In this document: piece by piece, positions 15,441-58,253 of the stretch
Numbering within the stretch: position 1 is the first letter of the stretch
Layout: each line of letters begins with the position of its first letter
Assembly (NCBI GenBank): GCA_017440935.1
Contig: JAFSAO010000004.1
Location: forward strand, 1 to 64,000
Origin: Opitutales bacterium
Lineage (GTDB): Bacteria > Verrucomicrobiota > Verrucomicrobiia > Opitutales > UBA953
Direction: 5' to 3'
Length of the DNA stretch: 64,000 nt
Program-made: the position numbers and the translations under genes
Notes under the pieces: model-generated
Told to the model about the DNA's origin: nothing
Seen by the model: only the letters and a program-made list of their open reading frames with translations
Databases searched by the model: none

Positions 15441-15455
15441 CTACTTGTTTGGTAG
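15441..15455. promoter_or_regulatory. Candidate operator CTACT-N5-GGTAG (site A)
   Basis: The 15-mer CTACTTGTTTGGTAG is one mismatch from the shared palindrome CTACC-N5-GGTAG, and the longer arms ACTAC/GTAGT pair exactly. It sits 140 bp before thrS and 38 bp before the divergent orphan gene start. Related sites are at 51149, 55098 and 56107. Confidence 0.45.
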
Positions 15456-24342: not shown

Positions 24343-24535
24343 GGGAACGCGCAAAGTTTCTAACCACACGGAATTATTTTCAACACCAAGATTTTTTCGG
24401 ATTTCGTGAAAAAGTGCTTGCAGAGGCAGTTTTTTTTTTTGCGAGAATCAAAATAAGAAATTGAGCCATATTTGACGGGAACGGTTTTCGTCGGACTCGA
24501 ATTTTTCTTTTTCAACAACAAACAAACATCTGATA

Positions 24536-25231
24536 ATGAAAAGATATATCACGATTGCTGCACTCCTCGCCGCAGGAACAGCTTTTGCTAACGCGGATTC
24601 GTTGACATTGACGGCTCCCTCTAATGCCCAGCTCGAAAGTGGCAATGGGTATATTGCGTGGGAGGGGGCTGAATTGACTTTAGAAAGTTGGTCTTTGTCG
24701 TTTACTCTCATCGATGTTGCTCTTGCCGACGATCAAGCGGTGTTCTCCACCACCAAGCAGGGCGGCGGGGGCGCAACCGGCTATGTTTTGAAAACGCAAG
24801 CTGACGGTGGGATTGCTCTCAGCGAAACAGATCTCGTTATCGAGAATGTTTTAACCGCCGGTCAAAAGAGCAACGCGATTACAATTTCCTTTGTTGCGGA
24901 CGTACTTGATGATGGTTCTTTCCAAGGAGGAACGTTTTCGTTGACTTATGGAGCTACGACCGTAAGTGAAAAGGTTTCGGGGCTTGCCGATCGTCCGGAT
25001 GCTATTAATGGCGCGACTTCGTTGATTAATGGAGAGCAAACGGGAGAGCAAACGGGATTTGGAACGGCAACATGGTCTTCTCGTTTTTGGACGAATGGCG
25101 GCTCTGAAAAAATTTATGATATTTCTGTCCAAAAGCTTAGTAACAACGTCATCCCCGAACCTTCGGCGTTCGGTATGCTTGCGGGACTTGGTGCGTTGGC
25201 GTTGGTAGTAGCGCGTCGCCGTCGCAAATAA
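24536..25231 (+). CDS. PEP-CTERM sorted exported protein
   Basis: A 231-residue secreted protein. A signal peptide (MKRYITIAALLAAGTAFANA) is followed by a beta-rich, Thr/Ser/Gly-rich body. The C-terminal sorting signal is VIPEPSAFGMLAGLGALALVV with a short arginine tail. In PEP-CTERM systems exosortase cleaves at this signal, placing the protein at the surface or in the matrix. No exosortase gene is in this window. The body has no domain I can name. The gene is lower in GC than its neighbours and lacks the CGGGAACG motif. Confidence 0.88.
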   Translation: MKRYITIAALLAAGTAFANADSLTLTAPSNAQLESGNGYIAWEGAELTLESWSLSFTLIDVALADDQAVFSTTKQGGGGATGYVLKTQADGGIALSETDLVIENVLTAGQKSNAITISFVADVLDDGSFQGGTFSLTYGATTVSEKVSGLADRPDAINGATSLINGEQTGEQTGFGTATWSSRFWTNGGSEKIYDISVQKLSNNVIPEPSAFGMLAGLGALALVVARRRRK

Positions 25232-25261
25232 TTTCTGTAATATATTGATTCATATGATTGG

Positions 25262-25297
25262 CGTTCCCGTGAAGCAATTCGCGGGAACGTTTTTTTT
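25262..25297 (+). terminator. Terminator made of paired CGGGAACG motifs
   Basis: Arms cgttcccg (25262-25269) and cgggaacg (25282-25289), then eight T residues, 31 bp after the PEP-CTERM stop. It has the same design as the terminators at 3783 and 35959. Confidence 0.92.
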
Positions 25298-35925: not shown

Positions 35926-35958
35926 TTTTCTGATATATTAATTCATAATAATGGTTTG

Positions 35959-35994
35959 CGTTCCCGTGGAGGAGTTCACGGGAACGTTTTTTTT
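35959..35994 (+). terminator. Terminator made of paired CGGGAACG motifs
   Basis: Arms cgttcccgtg (35959-35968) and cacgggaacg (35977-35986), then eight T residues, after the PDZ gene. Spelling is almost the same as at 25262, including the preceding 'atattaattcata' leader. Confidence 0.92.
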
Positions 35995-51148: not shown

Positions 51149-51163
51149 CTACCAATTTGGTTG
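51149..51163. promoter_or_regulatory. Candidate operator CTACC-N5-GGTTG (site B)
   Basis: The 15-mer ctaccaatttggttg is one mismatch from the shared palindrome. It is followed 9 bp later by ttgact, a possible -35 box, and lies 127 bp before the PEP-CTERM gene at 51290. Confidence 0.45.
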
Positions 51164-51289: not shown

Positions 51290-52255
51290 ATGAAAAAATC
51301 ATTATTAATCACAACGCTTCTCGCCGCAGGAAGCGTGTCTGTGATGGCGATAGCACCGTTTGGCGAACGATTTTCAGCGGGCTTTGCAGGAGGAACCATT
51401 GGAAAATTAAAAGGGACAGAGTGGGATTATCATCATGTTCACGAAAGTCATTACGCATCCAATGACTCCGGTTCGTGGACCGGGAATATTGGCTACCATG
51501 GTGCACATACGACAGGAGCCCATTTCACAGGCATTACACATTATCAGAACCAAAATTCCACATCTATTAATTTGGGGATAAATGCTCGTTACGAGTTCTA
51601 CTTTGAGTTCAATCTGAATCAATCTCAGTCCGGAAACTCCGGTGACCAAGCAATGGCGGGTATGTATTTGGCGGGTAGCGGGAAATCAATCTATTTCGGG
51701 AACGCCCAATTGGACAATAATGGGAATAGGCGTTCTGCGGTCGCGGTTGTGTATAATGCAGACATCGCAGATTATAACGACGACAATGGGCAATATGTCT
51801 ATTTTCCGAATGACGAGTTCAACTATAAACTGGCTAATGCGGGAACATATAAAGGAGATACAACTAATTTTTATACTGCTGTCGCGGGAACCAGTAATAA
51901 TACCTTTGATAGCGGAACGTATAAATTAACGGTCATCATTGAATCGTTTGCGGATACATCCCAAAACGATCTTCTTTATTTCCATGCATACACACCGGAA
52001 GGAACTGCGTCGCACACGTGGAATCTTAGTTCTATGACTGTTGCGTCCGCGCAAAGTTTTGATAATTTTGGCTTTATTCTTCACAACGACGGAGCAACAA
52101 CGGCATCGGCAACCAGAATGATGGCGTATGAATATTCAAGGTCACTGAAGCCGACAGATCCGTTGCCTGATATTCCTGAGCCTTCGGCGTTCGGATTGTT
52201 GGCGGGCTTGGGCGCGATTGCGCTTGCGGTATCTCGTCGCCGGCGTTCCCGTTAA
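51290..52255 (+). CDS. PEP-CTERM sorted exported protein, large
   Basis: A 321-residue secreted protein. A signal peptide (KKSLLITTLLAAGSVSVMA) leads to a beta-rich body full of Asn, Gly, Ser, Tyr and His (for example HESHYASNDSGSWTGNIGYHG). The C-terminal signal is DIPEPSAFGLLAGLGAIAL with an arginine tail. The body may be a lectin- or LamG-like sandwich; no family can be named. Codon use is clearly more A/T-rich than the surroundings. Related sorting signals occur at 24536 and 36063. Confidence 0.88.
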   Translation: MKKSLLITTLLAAGSVSVMAIAPFGERFSAGFAGGTIGKLKGTEWDYHHVHESHYASNDSGSWTGNIGYHGAHTTGAHFTGITHYQNQNSTSINLGINARYEFYFEFNLNQSQSGNSGDQAMAGMYLAGSGKSIYFGNAQLDNNGNRRSAVAVVYNADIADYNDDNGQYVYFPNDEFNYKLANAGTYKGDTTNFYTAVAGTSNNTFDSGTYKLTVIIESFADTSQNDLLYFHAYTPEGTASHTWNLSSMTVASAQSFDNFGFILHNDGATTASATRMMAYEYSRSLKPTDPLPDIPEPSAFGLLAGLGAIALAVSRRRRSR

Positions 52256-52316
52256 AAGTAGATCTTTTTTGCGGAAGGTTCTTTTAAGAGCCCCGCAAAG
52301 AGTTGTAAGTTAAGTC

Positions 52317-52352
52317 GCGCCTCCGGGTTTTAAACTCGGAGGCGCTTTTTTA
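52317..52352 (+). terminator. PEP-CTERM gene terminator
   Basis: Arms gcgcctccg and cggaggcgc pair exactly around an 11-nt loop, followed by tttttattttt. It lies 62 bp after the PEP-CTERM stop. Confidence 0.9.
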
Positions 52353-52834: not shown

Positions 52835-54109
52835 ATGGAAGACACAAAAACACTTGTCGGAAACTTGCTCGTCGCGCAGAGCGGCGGTCCCACTCCCGTT
52901 ATTAATGCCAGCCTCGCCGGCGTGATTTCCTCCGCGCTTCAGTTCGAGGACGATATTGAAGAAATTTACGGTGCGATTAACGGCGTTGAAGGTATCCTCA
53001 ACGAGAACCTCATTGATTTGGCGGCGGAGTCTCAGCAAACGGTGCGTTTGTTGAACACGACGCCGGGCGCCGCTCTCGGGAGTTGCCGCTACAAACTGCG
53101 TAAGGAAGAGGATTTTGCGCGTATTCTCGAAGTTTTTAAGGCGCACAATATCCGCTACTTCCACTACATCGGCGGGAACGACTCGCAGGATTCCTCCAAA
53201 AAAATCGCCGACTACTGCGCGGCTCAAGGCTACGAACTTCGCGTCATCGGCGTGCCGAAAACGATCGATAACGATTTGCCCGTGACGGATCATTGCCCGG
53301 GCTACGGGAGCACGATTAAATACATCGCGACGACGGTGCGGGAACTCACGTTCGATAGCGCTTCGCTCGGGCGCAACAACCTCGTGACCATCGTTGAAGT
53401 AATGGGGCGCGGGGCCGGATGGATTGCGGCAGGTTCTGTTCTCGCCAAGCGCAAGGGCGTGGCGACGGATGCGCCGCACATCGTGCTTTTGCCGGAAGTT
53501 CCGTTCAATGCGGACGCGTTTGCGGCTCGCGTGCAGGAAGTGCTTTCTCAACAAACGCATTGCGTTGTCGTCGCGGCGGAAGGGCTGAAAGATGCGGCGG
53601 GGAATTATCTTGGCGTCGGCGGAGCCGGTGTGGACGCGTTCGGGCACCCGACGCTTGGCGGGGTTTGCGAATTTTTGAAAAATATCGTCGAAGGCACGTT
53701 CGCGGGTGTCAAAACGCGTTGCTGCCGCCTTGGGCACGTTCAGCGCACGGCGTCGCACTGCGGTTCGCTTACGGACATTAACGAAGCGTTTGAAGCGGGC
53801 GCTGCTGCGGTGAAGGCGGCAGTTGCCGGAGAATCCGGAAAAATGATTGTTATCGTGCGCGATGAGCGGGAGCACTACTCGGTGCGCATGGAACTTTCGG
53901 AGCTCGACGGGATCGCGAACTGTGAAAAAATCGTTCCCGCGGCGTGGATCGGCGAAGACGGAATGTCGCTCAATCCCCAATTTGCGAAATATGCGCTTCC
54001 GCTGATTGTCGGCGAGCCGAAATTCGTTTACGAAAACGGGTTGCCGAAGTATGCGGAGCTTGCCCGTCACTTCGTCGACAAAAAATGTGCTCCGTATAAC
54101 GCGGCTTAA
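52835..54109 (+). CDS. pfp: Diphosphate-dependent phosphofructokinase
   Basis: Phosphorylates fructose 6-phosphate, most likely with pyrophosphate, in a reversible glycolytic step. The 424-residue product shows LLVAQSGGPTPVINASL, YIGGNDSQDSS and VPKTIDNDLP. The Asp after Asn in GGNDS and the Lys in PKTIDND are the residues that mark PPi-dependent forms (ATP forms have Gly at both). MGRGAGW and LGHVQRTASHCG complete the active site. The large clade with GGNDS is common in anaerobes. The donor should be tested; ATP use is not excluded. Confidence 0.93.
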   Translation: MEDTKTLVGNLLVAQSGGPTPVINASLAGVISSALQFEDDIEEIYGAINGVEGILNENLIDLAAESQQTVRLLNTTPGAALGSCRYKLRKEEDFARILEVFKAHNIRYFHYIGGNDSQDSSKKIADYCAAQGYELRVIGVPKTIDNDLPVTDHCPGYGSTIKYIATTVRELTFDSASLGRNNLVTIVEVMGRGAGWIAAGSVLAKRKGVATDAPHIVLLPEVPFNADAFAARVQEVLSQQTHCVVVAAEGLKDAAGNYLGVGGAGVDAFGHPTLGGVCEFLKNIVEGTFAGVKTRCCRLGHVQRTASHCGSLTDINEAFEAGAAAVKAAVAGESGKMIVIVRDEREHYSVRMELSELDGIANCEKIVPAAWIGEDGMSLNPQFAKYALPLIVGEPKFVYENGLPKYAELARHFVDKKCAPYNAA

Positions 54110-54187
54110 TTTGAAATTGAGCTTGCAAAGCCGGATTTTGCCTCGGATAATTTTGGTCGTTTTAACAACACACTTCAGAGGAAAACT

Positions 54188-55012
54188 ATGAAATTGATCA
54201 AACTTGTTTCGATTATTGCGTTCGCGCTTGCATCCGGCTTTGCGTTCGCGGCTGCCCCGGGTAACATTGCTGTCGGTTCCGTTGAGGGAACGGTTGTTGT
54301 TACGGCTGCAGACGGCGTTGAAAAACAGCTCGTCGCCGGTTATGTTATTCGCGAAAATTCCCGTGTTTCTACGGACAAGGATTCGACGGCGAAATTCATC
54401 CTCGCCAACGGAACCGTCGTCGTTTTGAAACCGAACACGACTCTTGATATTTCCCAGTTTGAGCAGAATAATCCGTCCGCCGTTGACGGGCAGGATTATT
54501 CCACGTTTGCTACGGAGCCCGAAGCAACTGCCGGCTCTCTGACAACGGTTCGCCTCGTGAAGGGCACGGCGCTGTTCAAGGTCGCAAAGCTTCTTCCGGG
54601 TTCCAAGCTCACGGTGAAGACGCACGGCGGGGATATCTCCGTTAAGGGAACCACGTTCTACGTTACCGTTAACGGTGCGTCCGTTAGCGCGGGTTGCATC
54701 GACGGTGCGATCGCCGTTTCTCCGACCGGGCGTGCAACGCTTACGTTGACTTCCGGCAAGTCCGCAACGATTTCCGGTGCGTCCGGCGCTCTTTCTTTCG
54801 GACGTGCGTCTGTCGCTCTGACGAATGAAGCCAAGACGGCATTTGCGGCAGAGGAAACAGGAAAGCCCTCGTCGTCGACTTCGACGGGAACGGGTTCTTC
54901 CGATGCTTTTGACGTGACGATGCCGCCGGCATCGGTTGAAGGAACGACGGGTTCGGATCGTATTCCGGAAGTCAATTCCGCGTCTTCCGTGGACGACGGA
55001 CGAAAATACTAA
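54188..55012 (+). CDS. Exported FecR-domain protein, paralogue 1
   Basis: A 274-residue protein with a signal peptide (KLVSIIAFALASGFAFA) and a FecR-like beta domain (residues ~25-190). The domain includes VGSVEGTVVVTAADGVEKQL, SRVSTDKDSTAKFILANGTVVVLKPNTTL and SVKGTTFYVTVNGASVSAGCIDGAIAVSP. The last ~60 residues are Ser/Thr-rich and end in MPPASVEGTTGSDRIPEVNSASS. It has no membrane anchor, so it is not a FecR anti-sigma regulator but a secreted relative. It is followed by a near-copy at 55246. The Shine-Dalgarno-like agaggaaa precedes it. Confidence 0.85.
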   Translation: MKLIKLVSIIAFALASGFAFAAAPGNIAVGSVEGTVVVTAADGVEKQLVAGYVIRENSRVSTDKDSTAKFILANGTVVVLKPNTTLDISQFEQNNPSAVDGQDYSTFATEPEATAGSLTTVRLVKGTALFKVAKLLPGSKLTVKTHGGDISVKGTTFYVTVNGASVSAGCIDGAIAVSPTGRATLTLTSGKSATISGASGALSFGRASVALTNEAKTAFAAEETGKPSSSTSTGTGSSDAFDVTMPPASVEGTTGSDRIPEVNSASSVDDGRKY

Positions 55013-55097: not shown

Positions 55098-55112
55098 ATA
55101 CCGTTTCGGTAG
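55098..55112. promoter_or_regulatory. Candidate operator ATACC-N5-GGTAG (site C)
   Basis: The 15-mer ataccgtttcggtag contains the perfect dyad TACCG-TTT-CGGTA. Seven bases later comes ttgcgg, a possible -35 box. It lies 134 bp before the second FecR-domain gene. Spacing to TTGC is the same as at site D. Confidence 0.5.
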
Positions 55113-55245
55113 ATTTTACTTGCGGCATTCTGATTTTTTTGCCTAACTTTCGGTGTGAATTTGACGTGTCCTCTTAGCTCATCGTGGTCATGCGCTTAAA
55201 TTTACGAATTTTAACGAACAAAACACAAATAACATTAAAAACATC

Positions 55246-56034
55246 ATGAAATTAACGAAACTTGCTTCAATCTTCGCATTCGTGCTCGCTTCGAGCTTTG
55301 CGTTTGCCGCTGCGCCGGGAAATATTTCCGTCGGTTCCGTGGAGGGAACGGTGGTTGTAACTGCCGCCGACGGCGTTAAAACAAAACTCGTCGCCGGAGA
55401 TATGCTGAAACAGAACACACGTATTTCGACGGAAAAGGATTCGTCGGCAAAAATCGTTTTGGCAAACGGAACAGTTATTTTCCTGAAGCCGGATACGACG
55501 CTTGACGTTGCTCAATTCGAGCAAAACAACCCGTCTGCGGTCGACGGTCAGGATTATTCCGCATTTAAGGCTGAACCCGAAGCAACGGCGGGCTCCGTGA
55601 CGACGGTGCGCATTGCGAGGGGAACGGCTTTCTTCAAAGTTGCGAAACTTCTCCCGGGTTCCAAGCTCACGGTGAAAACCCGTGTCGGCGACGTCGCTGT
55701 TAAAGGGACGACCTTTTATGTTTCCGTTAGCGGTGCGTCCGTGAATGCAGGTTGCATCGACGGCGTTATCGAAGTTACTCCGGCCGGGCGCGCTTCTCTC
55801 ACGTTGACTGCCGGAAAATCCGCGACGATTTCGGAAACGGGAACGCTTTCGTTTGAACGTGTTTCTTCTACTTTGTCGGATGAAGCCGCTGCCGCTTTTG
55901 ACAGCGGAGAAGACGACCGCGTTTCTTCGTTCGGTAGTGCTTCGGGCTCCGTTTTCGACGTTACGATGCCTCCGGCGGCTGTCGAAGGTCCGAATGCGGA
56001 TCGTATTCCGGTCAATTCCGCAAGTTCTCTCTAA
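55246..56034 (+). CDS. Exported FecR-domain protein, paralogue 2
   Basis: A 262-residue protein, closely similar to the 54188 product across the signal peptide (KLASIFAFVLASSFAFA) and FecR domain. The same PGNI-VGSVEGTVVVTAADGV opening, EQNNPSAVDGQDYS and LLPGSKLTVKT segments, and single cysteine in AGCIDG are present. The C-terminal tail has diverged but keeps FDVTMPPAAVEGP and RIPVNSASS. The pair is a recent tandem duplication. Its upstream region, with operator-like site C, differs from that of paralogue 1, so the copies may be controlled differently. Confidence 0.85.
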   Translation: MKLTKLASIFAFVLASSFAFAAAPGNISVGSVEGTVVVTAADGVKTKLVAGDMLKQNTRISTEKDSSAKIVLANGTVIFLKPDTTLDVAQFEQNNPSAVDGQDYSAFKAEPEATAGSVTTVRIARGTAFFKVAKLLPGSKLTVKTRVGDVAVKGTTFYVSVSGASVNAGCIDGVIEVTPAGRASLTLTAGKSATISETGTLSFERVSSTLSDEAAAAFDSGEDDRVSSFGSASGSVFDVTMPPAAVEGPNADRIPVNSASSL

Positions 56035-56049: not shown

Positions 56050-56096
56050 AAAAAAGGGCGAAGCGCAAAATGCGTTTCGCCCTTTTTCTTTTTTTC
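56050..56096 (+). terminator. fecR-like gene 2 terminator
   Basis: Stem aaaaagggcgaagcgca / tgcgtttcgccctttt with a short loop, one mismatch, and a long T-rich tail. It separates the gene from the downstream candidate transcript. Confidence 0.92.
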
Positions 56097-56106
56097 AAAA
56101 AAAAAT

Positions 56107-56121
56107 CTACCAAATAGGTAG
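56107..56121. promoter_or_regulatory. Candidate operator CTACC-AAATA-GGTAG (site D)
   Basis: The most symmetric of the four sites, with exact CTACC and GGTAG arms. Seven bases later comes ttgcct and then ttgcac; the latter has tattcg 17 bp downstream, giving a possible promoter. No gene start lies within 400 bp, so it may drive a small RNA. Confidence 0.5.
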
Positions 56122-56162
56122 AAAATGCTTGCCTTGCACAAAATCATTCGGCAAAGTATTCG

Positions 56163-56410
56163 GCATAGTCTCGCTCAGCGAGTCTGATCTTTTATCTTTA
56201 GTAACAGTTTTTTTCTTGGGACAGCTCCAACGTTCTCAATGCTGAGGATTGTGCCGTGTAAAAATGACTTACGGGTAAAACTTCGGATTTCACTAAGCGA
56301 ATGTAGATTTTCGGAGGAAGGCATAGCCTTTTTCCGGGTTCAATAGATTAGATGAAGTTAGTTGTTAAACCCTTCCCGTGTGTCATAGCACACGGGAAGG
56401 TCATTTTTAG
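56163..56410 (+). ncRNA. Candidate small RNA between fecR-like gene 2 and glgA
   Basis: The 500-bp spacer contains no open frame of note. It begins with a terminator, then an operator-like site and promoter-like boxes (56107-56162). It ends in a perfect 12-bp hairpin, ccttcccgtgtg-tcatag-cacacgggaagg (56371-56400), followed by tcattttta. Inside are smaller hairpins (tctcgctcagcgag, ctcaatgctgag, ggaaggcatagcctttttcc). I could not match it to 6S RNA, tmRNA, SRP RNA or RNase P RNA. It could also be a long glgA leader. Borders are estimates. Confidence 0.4.
56371..56410 (+). terminator. Perfect 12-bp hairpin before glgA
   Basis: Arms ccttcccgtgtg and cacacgggaagg with a 6-nt loop and a moderate T tract (tcattttta). 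It probably ends the candidate small RNA or acts in the glgA leader. Confidence 0.7.
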
Positions 56411-56537
56411 GACGGGCCGCTTTTTATGTGCGTGTTCCCGTGAGTGTTTGCCCTTTACGCAATCGTTTTTTTCCGCGATAATTCCGCAAGGATTCACCCC
56501 CGTTAATAATTCTTAACCACAAGAAAATTCTCCTACT

Positions 56538-58253
56538 ATGAAAATTTTGATGATTTCTCCTGAAATCGCTCCGTATTCCAAGACGGGCGGACTCGGTGAT
56601 GCCGTTGCGGCTTTGACAAAAGCCGTTGCTGAGCGCGGGCACGAGGTGCGCGTTTTTACGCCGCTTTACGGTTCCGTTAAGCGCGTCGGCGAATGGACTC
56701 CGTATCCCGATCCCGTTCGCGTGGAGCTCGGCTTCGGGATGTTTGCGGATTGCCGTGTTTGGGAAGTGCCGTTTCACAAGGCTCAAATCAATTTCTGCGA
56801 ATACAATCATTTCTTCGGCGCGCCGGAAGTTTACTCTCAGCGCAAGGATGACGCATACCGCTTTGCGTTTTTCTGTCGTGCGGCAATTGATTTTTGCGAA
56901 CAGGCAAACTGGATTCCGGATATTGTGCACTGCCACGACTGGACGACCGGGCTTGTTCCCGCGATGCTCAACACGCGTGACAACTGGCGTCGTATCGCTC
57001 GCGCGGGAACGGTATTCACGATTCACAACCTCCAGCACCAGGGGCTTTGCGAAAAAGGAATCATTGATTATCTCGGTCTGCCGTGGGGGCTTTTCACGGA
57101 CGACAACTACGAATGTCTCGGCGGGCTGAACATGATGAAGGGCGCGCTTTATCATTCGACGAAAATTACGACTGTTTCTCCGACTTACGCCTACGAAATC
57201 CAAACCCCGCAGTATGGCTTCGGAATTGACCACGTTTTGCGCCACCGCGCTCGGGATTTGACCGGAATTATTAACGGAATCGACTATCAGGAATGGTCTC
57301 CGCTCGTGGATAAATACATTCCCGCACACTACAATGCGGATGATTTTACGGGAAAAAGAATCTGCAAGGCGGAACTGCAAAAAGCCTGCGGGCTTCCCGT
57401 GAAGGAAAACGTTCCCGTGTTCGGAGTCGTTTCCCGCCTTTACGATCAGAAAGGATTGGATTTATTCGCCGGAATTCTTCCGGAATTGCTTTCCCGCGCG
57501 GAAATGCAGGTCGTGTTGCTCGGGAGCGGCGATCCCGCTCTGGAAAGCGCATTCGGGCGCCTCGCCGCGCAGTTCCCGACAAAAATGTATGCGAGAATCG
57601 GATACGATAACAAACTCTCGCACATGATTGAAGCGGGCTCGGACTTCTTTGTGATGCCGTCGCGATTTGAACCTTGCGGCCTTAACCAAATGTATTCCAT
57701 GGCCTACGGCACGTTGCCGATTGTGCGCACGACGGGCGGTCTCGTCGATACCGTCGCCGCGTGGTCGCCGAATGCTCCGGGGCAGGGCACGGGCATTAAC
57801 TTCCAGGATGCGGATCAGCAGGCGTTGCTCTGGGCGGTGGAACGCGCACTCCAGCTGTATTACGATTATTCCTCGGATTATTACGCAGTGCGCCGCAATG
57901 CGATGTGCCGCGACTTTTCGTGGGATCGCTCCGTCGATAAATACGAAGAAGTTTATCAAAGTGCCGTCGAGATGCGCAAAGGTGCGTTCCCGCCGCCGCC
58001 GAAATTTGTGAAACCGGAACCGAAGCAGGTCGCTCCCGCGCCGGCGCCGAAGAAGGAAAAACAGGAAGCTCCGAAGTCTGCAGCTCCGGCTCCGGTCGTC
58101 GATACCGCGCCGAAACCCGAGACGGTAGCAAAACCCGTGGAGGAGAAGCCCGCGTCGTTGCCGAAAGCAACTTCCGTAAAGGCGACTCCCGCGAAAAAGA
58201 ACGTTCCCGCAAAGAAATCTTCGAGAAAAAAGTCTTCCCGTAAGAAAAAGTAA
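56538..58253 (+). CDS. glgA: Glycogen synthase (GT5) with basic C-terminal tail
   Basis: Adds glucose from ADP- or UDP-glucose to glycogen. The 571-residue product begins with KILMISPEIAPYSKTGGLGDA, the nucleotide-sugar binding KTGG motif. The C-domain has PSRFEPCGLNQMYSMAYGTLPIVRTTGGL. Both fit GlgA. The enzyme proper ends near residue 480; an extra ~90 residues rich in Pro, Ala, Lys follow, ending in repeated KKSSRKK blocks, not seen in usual GlgA proteins. The tail could bind nucleic acid, glycogen or another protein. It is coded partly over CGGGAACG motifs. Confidence 0.94.
   Translation: MKILMISPEIAPYSKTGGLGDAVAALTKAVAERGHEVRVFTPLYGSVKRVGEWTPYPDPVRVELGFGMFADCRVWEVPFHKAQINFCEYNHFFGAPEVYSQRKDDAYRFAFFCRAAIDFCEQANWIPDIVHCHDWTTGLVPAMLNTRDNWRRIARAGTVFTIHNLQHQGLCEKGIIDYLGLPWGLFTDDNYECLGGLNMMKGALYHSTKITTVSPTYAYEIQTPQYGFGIDHVLRHRARDLTGIINGIDYQEWSPLVDKYIPAHYNADDFTGKRICKAELQKACGLPVKENVPVFGVVSRLYDQKGLDLFAGILPELLSRAEMQVVLLGSGDPALESAFGRLAAQFPTKMYARIGYDNKLSHMIEAGSDFFVMPSRFEPCGLNQMYSMAYGTLPIVRTTGGLVDTVAAWSPNAPGQGTGINFQDADQQALLWAVERALQLYYDYSSDYYAVRRNAMCRDFSWDRSVDKYEEVYQSAVEMRKGAFPPPPKFVKPEPKQVAPAPAPKKEKQEAPKSAAPAPVVDTAPKPETVAKPVEEKPASLPKATSVKATPAKKNVPAKKSSRKKSSRKKK

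Follow-up and report, generated by a model that had tools for sequence, protein, structure and literature searches.

The window, the stretch of 64,000 nucleotides analysed here, corresponds to contig C22 of a MAG from the Opitutales (Verrucomicrobiota), labelled G000. Its right-hand part contains, in this order, a PEP-CTERM gene (51290-52255), a sugar kinase-like gene (52835-54109) that we take to be pfk, two FecR-domain genes (fecR1 and fecR2), an RNA locus and glgA (56538-58253). The features of the RNA locus and of the sites related to it are given in Table 1.

Table 1. Positions of the RNA gene, its parts and related sites in the window.
Feature	Position	Strand	Remarks
Weaker candidate target, PEP-CTERM leader	24477..24540	+	gene start 24536; no operator; -17.2 kcal/mol; 47/400 shuffles equal
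Operator TACCAATTTGGTT of PEP-CTERM gene 51290-52255	51150..51162	.	
PEP-CTERM gene (PF07589)	51290..52255	+	operator-bearing; not a predicted target
3'UTR module of PEP-CTERM gene 51290-52255	52264..52345	+	hairpin, GUUGUAAGUUAAGUC tail, terminator; layout of the sRNA 3' end
fecR1 leader with start codon, candidate target	54160..54193	+	duplex energy moderate; weak after allowing for self-structure
fecR1 (PF04773)	54188..55012	+	without operator
Operator TACCGTTTCGGTA and -35 TTGC of fecR2	55099..55123	+	
fecR2 (PF04773)	55246..56034	+	operator-bearing
Operator palindrome CTACCAAATAGGTAG	56107..56121	.	common to PEP-CTERM and fecR2 promoters
Proposed promoter TTGCCT-N17-CAAAGT	56129..56157	+	boxes 56129-56134 and 56152-56157; putative, weak; layout as in sister promoters
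sRNA gene	56159..56411	+	putative 5' end at about 56159-56164
sRNA 5' domain	56161..56256	+	present only in this genome and G005; includes a segment shared unchanged by the two (GAGTCTGATC...TTTCTTGG)
sRNA 3' domain	56257..56411	+	counterpart of the entire 146-nt RNA of G003/G007
Covarying hairpin	56312..56336	+	11 pairs; loop NUA
Tail (antisense region)	56337..56371	+	follows the hairpin and precedes the terminator; contains the 17-mer GTTCAATAGATTAGATG at 56338-56354
Terminator-like hairpin and U-rich tail	56371..56408	+	hairpin 56371-56400; 12 perfect pairs and one U-G; loop of 4
glgA promoter TTTACG-N17-GATAAT	56454..56482	+	equal boxes ahead of glgA in L004 and L005

A sequence-only reading of this DNA had described about 300 bp upstream of glgA as non-coding, preceded by a strong terminator and closed by a perfect 12-bp hairpin. 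All three statements held: the upstream terminator is located at 56051-56087, the terminal hairpin has its 12 perfect pairs, and none of the ORFs of at least 20 amino acids in the region 56100-56537 is kept as a protein in the related genomes G005 or G007. A 54-aa ORF at 56352 was rejected as a gene, its first codons being shared by G005 because the RNA itself is conserved, and the ORF being absent from G007. The region 56160-56410 is structured as well as non-coding, both being features of a trans-acting base-pairing sRNA, with a fold of -90.1 kcal/mol versus -60 +/- 4.6 kcal/mol for shuffled sequences (z -6.5; 0/200 shuffles equalled it). A further such feature, an intrinsic terminator, is represented by the hairpin at 56371-56400, although the U-tract of the terminator is poorer in the RNA of G003 and G007. 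The same reading had recognised no housekeeping RNA and had suggested a scan against Rfam; indeed, a scan of the window with Rfam 15 assigned no family to the locus at the gathering threshold. Relaxing the threshold gave low scores only, nearly all of them on the upstream terminator, and the homologous loci (E up to 0.1) gave four matches, every one below the gathering score. An origin of the RNA from a phage or plasmid was rejected, as blastn of 56100-56420 returned no match in either the phage or the plasmid collection. Viral contigs hit by a loose pattern, among the matches listed, were judged to be chance matches and set aside.

Homologues of the RNA were retrieved in three of the seven congeners (G005, G003 and G007). 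DNA similarity over the full length was found only in G005, at the equivalent site; G003 and G007 gave short matches. In the latter two genomes, the RNA is flanked by an rpsU-like gene on one side and a fecR gene on the other; it thus adjoins fecR but not glgA there, indicating that its link is with fecR (4/4 genomes) and not with glgA. Between the window and G005, the 3' domain was identical at 147 of 155 positions (94.8%), exceeding both glgA (600/653, 91.9%, over its first 653 nt) and fecR2 (684/789, 86.7%). The corresponding values were 80/98 for the 5' domain, 43/58 for the operator/promoter region and 28/39 for the stretch directly after the RNA. Positions 56183-56222 in the 5' domain are almost invariant between G000 and G005, despite diverged flanks. 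Among 79 genomes of the family, a consensus pattern retrieved eight copies in four genomes (control: one), namely a full RNA in each of G000, G005, G003 and G007 and two short copies downstream of PEP-CTERM genes in each of G003 and G007. A covariance model (R1) scored these eight seed copies at 81-99 bits and added two new copies at 35 and 34 bits. These lie in G000:C8 and G005:C29, in each case in the 3'UTR of a PEP-CTERM gene; no other score in the 79 genomes exceeded 27 bits, the value reached in G001. Pairing in the internal, covarying hairpin amounts to 96.1% across seven distinct sequences, versus 40-58% for slid controls, and three of its 11 pairs show changes on both sides. In G001:C39, an intergenic stretch on the minus strand (L278, about 1260-1572) has a terminator as well as CTATAGATTAACGATGAGTTAG and a promoter-like start; although G001 seemed to lack the sRNA, this stretch may be its diverged equivalent there.

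PEP-CTERM/exosortase surface proteins are widespread. The arrangement of hairpin, tail and terminator at the 3' end of the RNA recurs as a module in 3'UTRs of PEP-CTERM genes, namely in G000:C8, in G005:C29 and in the window at 52264-52345, with a similar one in G005:C20, and also downstream of PEP-CTERM genes in G003 and G007. Another conserved element of 3'UTRs (TAATATATTAATTCATAA-like) occurs at 25232-25291 and 35937-35987, directly ahead of GCGTTCCCG terminators, and recurs after PEP-CTERM genes in G003 and G007. These two genomes also contain dispersed hairpin-rich repeats (CCCTCACC...GGAGGAGTC; L113-L116) between PEP-CTERM stop codons and short module copies. In G001:C89 and G006:C117 (L307 and L314), GGTTAGATAGAGAAGTTAGAGTTA precedes the terminator in the 3'UTR of an apparently orthologous gene, the window counterpart of which, near 35.9 kb, carries the other 3'UTR element.

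The operator-like site noticed earlier ahead of the RNA proved to be a palindrome that reads CTACTTATATAGTAG in G005, both arms being altered and the palindrome intact. Concerning the promoter-like boxes, a sigma-70 scan gave no promoter at 56107-56410, and only the layout shared with sister promoters suggests the weak TTGCCT-N17-CAAAGT, the TTGC box of which is conserved, as is the operator. A pattern of palindrome plus TTGC box matched three times in every genome that has the RNA (four in all) and nowhere in the other four (control: six overall); one of the G000 matches, among ribosomal-protein-like genes, is probably due to chance. A simpler operator pattern, allowing one mismatch, matched 53 times among the four genomes that have the RNA (control: 12), as against 13 times among the others (control: 16). 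The contexts of 46 of these 53 and of all 13 elsewhere were inspected, and the operator preceded a PEP-CTERM gene in 18 of the 46, versus 0/13 in G001 and G006. The remaining seven comprised three RNA promoters (G000, G003 and G007), the PEP-CTERM gene of the window, two sites ahead of a lipoprotein-like gene and one beside the end of the G003 RNA. The operator was also present at the RNA-adjoining fecR of G003 and G007. From its sequence contexts, TACC-N5-GGTA is a predicted promoter element of genes for PEP-CTERM (surface-sorted) proteins. An operator-like TACTTGTTTGGTAG occurs at 15442-15455, upstream of what is presumably a threonyl-tRNA synthetase-like gene.

The tail of the RNA, which is about two-thirds paired in the predicted fold of the G000 RNA (mean unpaired 0.33), was tested against leaders from -60 to +30 and proved complementary to the start regions of mRNAs that are encoded at other loci. 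A search of eight genomes for the antisense of its 17-mer, with at most three mismatches, gave 11 matches (control: two), two of which were the RNA gene itself. All three other matches with at most two mismatches abut the AUG of a PEP-CTERM gene (G000:C8, G005:C29 and G005:C44). In the G005 counterpart of the G000:C8 gene, CATCTAATCTATTGAAC abuts the ATG and is perfectly antisense to RNA positions 56338-56354 (17/17 bp), and the PEP-CTERM target of G000 itself has 14 bp with one G-U. The duplexes of the G005 targets reached -26.4 (17 contiguous bp) and -29.0 kcal/mol, equalled by 0/400 shuffles. The six matches with three mismatches consist of three probably coding sites and three sites (CACCTAATCTTTTTAAC) at 20-36 bases ahead of a 403-aa gene in G000:C20, G005:C14 and G003:C10 (L426, L427 and L419), presumably type II secretion F-like, where the additional match to the tail is weak. 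In G003 and G007, a pattern built on the remaining half of the tail led to the leaders of four MKKYIT-type PEP-CTERM genes, although its 21 matches were fewer than those of the control (33); the PEP-CTERM targets there form multi-helix duplexes with the tail, and a fifth target gene (L300) was found independently, via its 3'UTR. Six of the seven target proteins scanned reached at least the cut-off of PF07589; the protein of C44 scored 19.3 versus a cut-off of 20.7 bits and passed TIGR02595. Most PEP-CTERM leaders had no special complementarity to the tail.

The fecR1 leaders form a second group of candidates. Those of G003 and G007 reached -21.9 kcal/mol with the tail, equalled by 0/500 shuffles and 0/195 other leaders. 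Those of G000 and G005 reached -18.3 kcal/mol, equalled by 37/500 and 17/500 shuffles, respectively, and one of 195 leaders was better, namely that of the PEP-CTERM gene of G000:C8, the 3'UTR of which bears the sister module. When self-structure was counted, all eight PEP-CTERM targets and both fecR1 leaders of G003 and G007 occupied rank 1 or 2 relative to the 24-71 background leaders of their own genome. The fecR1 leaders of G000 (dG_bind -4.7; 23/71 background leaders better) and G005 (dG_bind -10.0; 8/23 better) ranked lower. fecR2 was rejected as a target (141/500 and 156/500 shuffles equal). The 5' domain was unconvincing as a second antisense region, fecR1 ranking 8/72 in G000 and 2/24 in G005.

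The complementarity is kept between the lineages despite sequence change. When paired with the tail from their own lineage, the eight PEP-CTERM targets and the four fecR1 leaders gave -18.3 to -29.0 kcal/mol; the tail from the other lineage gave -8.0 to -14.8 kcal/mol. This co-change represents few independent events, the two genomes within each lineage pair being closely related. This contrast between own and swapped tails is the strongest argument for a real pairing. In addition, significant antisense to the tail was found in 0/16 PEP-CTERM leaders with operator versus 6/15 without (p 0.007), the count covering 31 leaders after removal, from 34, of three with less than 180 bases upstream, and retaining doubtful starts in the no-operator group (e.g. 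L303, L385 at 664 and window 26298). Leaving out the leaders found only by their complementarity, the partition was 0/16 versus 2/9 (p 0.12), and a model in which the RNA switches between the two groups is therefore favoured, not proven.

As judged from its sequence, the locus comprises a conserved RNA gene with a covarying hairpin, a tail antisense to start regions and a common operator. We consider it to be probably (at about 0.78) a stand-alone trans-acting antisense sRNA that is co-regulated with one set of PEP-CTERM genes and silences another. The sRNA would be transcribed from its own promoter, under a regulator reading TACC-N5-GGTA, and hence expressed together with the operator-bearing PEP-CTERM genes and fecR2, from a putative start to the hairpin at 56371-56400. 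Its tail, complementary in sequence, may then pair with the start regions of operator-less mRNAs, namely those of the PEP-CTERM genes of G000:C8, G005:C29 and G005:C44, the MKKYIT-type genes of G003 and G007, and the fecR1 paralogue, the latter being clear in G003 and G007 and weaker in G000. As the sRNA is complementary to the starts of surface-protein messages, it probably switches those proteins off; pairing over or beside the AUG would block ribosome binding, and alternative surface proteins would be off when the operator regulon is on. A wider view, tentative and in our opinion rather doubtful, is that of an RNA switch in which the operator regulon makes one PEP-CTERM set plus the sRNA silencing the other, the sRNA having arisen from the 3'UTR modules of PEP-CTERM mRNAs, beside which it may still act. 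If true, surface-protein messages would police one another.

The earlier reading had left the choice between a free small RNA and a leader for glycogen synthesis. Homologues, covarying hairpin, conserved upstream promoter element, terminator and antisense to distant mRNAs speak for the former. A cis-acting leader or riboswitch of glgA is very improbable and was dropped: the RNA does lie on the same strand, about 130-380 bases upstream of glgA, but its own terminator-like hairpin intervenes and glgA has a separate promoter. The same boxes precede glgA in L004 and L005, probably the same two genomes as G003 and G007, where the RNA is absent at glgA and adjoins fecR instead. Known aptamers were absent at both Rfam thresholds, and position and promoters argue against co-transcription and joint conservation with glgA. 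The chance that the locus is a diverged form of a housekeeping RNA, for instance 6S, is negligible, although its length, folding and size would suit, as the Rfam scan left it without a match. Moreover, the 6S RNA model (RF00013) did not match it and identified a separate 6S RNA at G000:C11:11934-12117 (75 bits), refuting a 6S identity; a 6S match is present in 7/8 genomes of the genus.

The RNA may also be real and act mainly as a decoy, its module titrating an RNA-binding protein or RNase. The recurrence of this module in PEP-CTERM 3'UTRs of G000 and G005 and downstream of PEP-CTERM genes in G003 and G007 is consistent with that role, which we nevertheless regard as unlikely, since it leaves unexplained the 14-17 bp of antisense abutting start codons and the lineage-matched change. 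Still less credible is a decayed, functionless PEP-CTERM gene that lost its ORF and retained promoter and 3'UTR: such a gene would leave behind an operator-promoter, a 3' module of PEP-CTERM type and no ORF between the two, as is seen here, but the 3' domain is conserved above neighbouring coding sequence, its hairpin covaries, the RNA sits elsewhere in the genomes of two further species, and it is antisense to targets. The stand-alone antisense sRNA remains the preferred explanation. It offers exact pairing sites, open to testing, for a gut lineage that is uncultured, the promoter palindrome defines a regulon, and the antisense model gives a reason for the FecR-domain genes adjoining the RNA.

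Antisense trans-acting sRNAs for surface proteins are already known as a kind. RybB, which is under sigma-E control, is an enterobacterial sRNA that represses outer-membrane proteins. MicA, another enterobacterial sRNA, represses outer-membrane proteins too (PMC3551931). As far as the available account extends, the present sRNA resembles both in being a stand-alone RNA with a terminator, a control joined to that of envelope genes and an antisense to the starts of several surface-protein mRNAs. It differs from them in that the Rfam scan shows no sequence kinship, its tail sits between an internal hairpin and the terminator, its promoter has a palindrome common to surface-protein genes instead of depending on sigma-E, and its predicted targets are PEP-CTERM and FecR proteins. 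GibS and other sRNAs of Bacteroides thetaiotaomicron, a gut bacterium outside the Proteobacteria (PMC7366714), differ, on what that source describes, in phylum, targets and sequence, the present locus being without Rfam family. A literature search for sRNAs of PEP-CTERM genes or of Verrucomicrobia(ota) found no sRNA acting on PEP-CTERM genes; new are, most likely, the RNA family, its lineage and its PEP-CTERM targets, absent from Rfam and from the literature searched. Transcriptional control of PEP-CTERM genes is described for DVUA0057 in Desulfovibrio (PMC3333781), in the consulted part of which 'sRNA' and 'PEP-CTERM' relate to different regulators, and for RpoN in Aquincola (PMC9850573). As portrayed there, these systems share with the present one a coordinated control of PEP-CTERM genes, whereas theirs is transcriptional and here an sRNA layer is proposed, with a palindrome upstream of a -35-like box.
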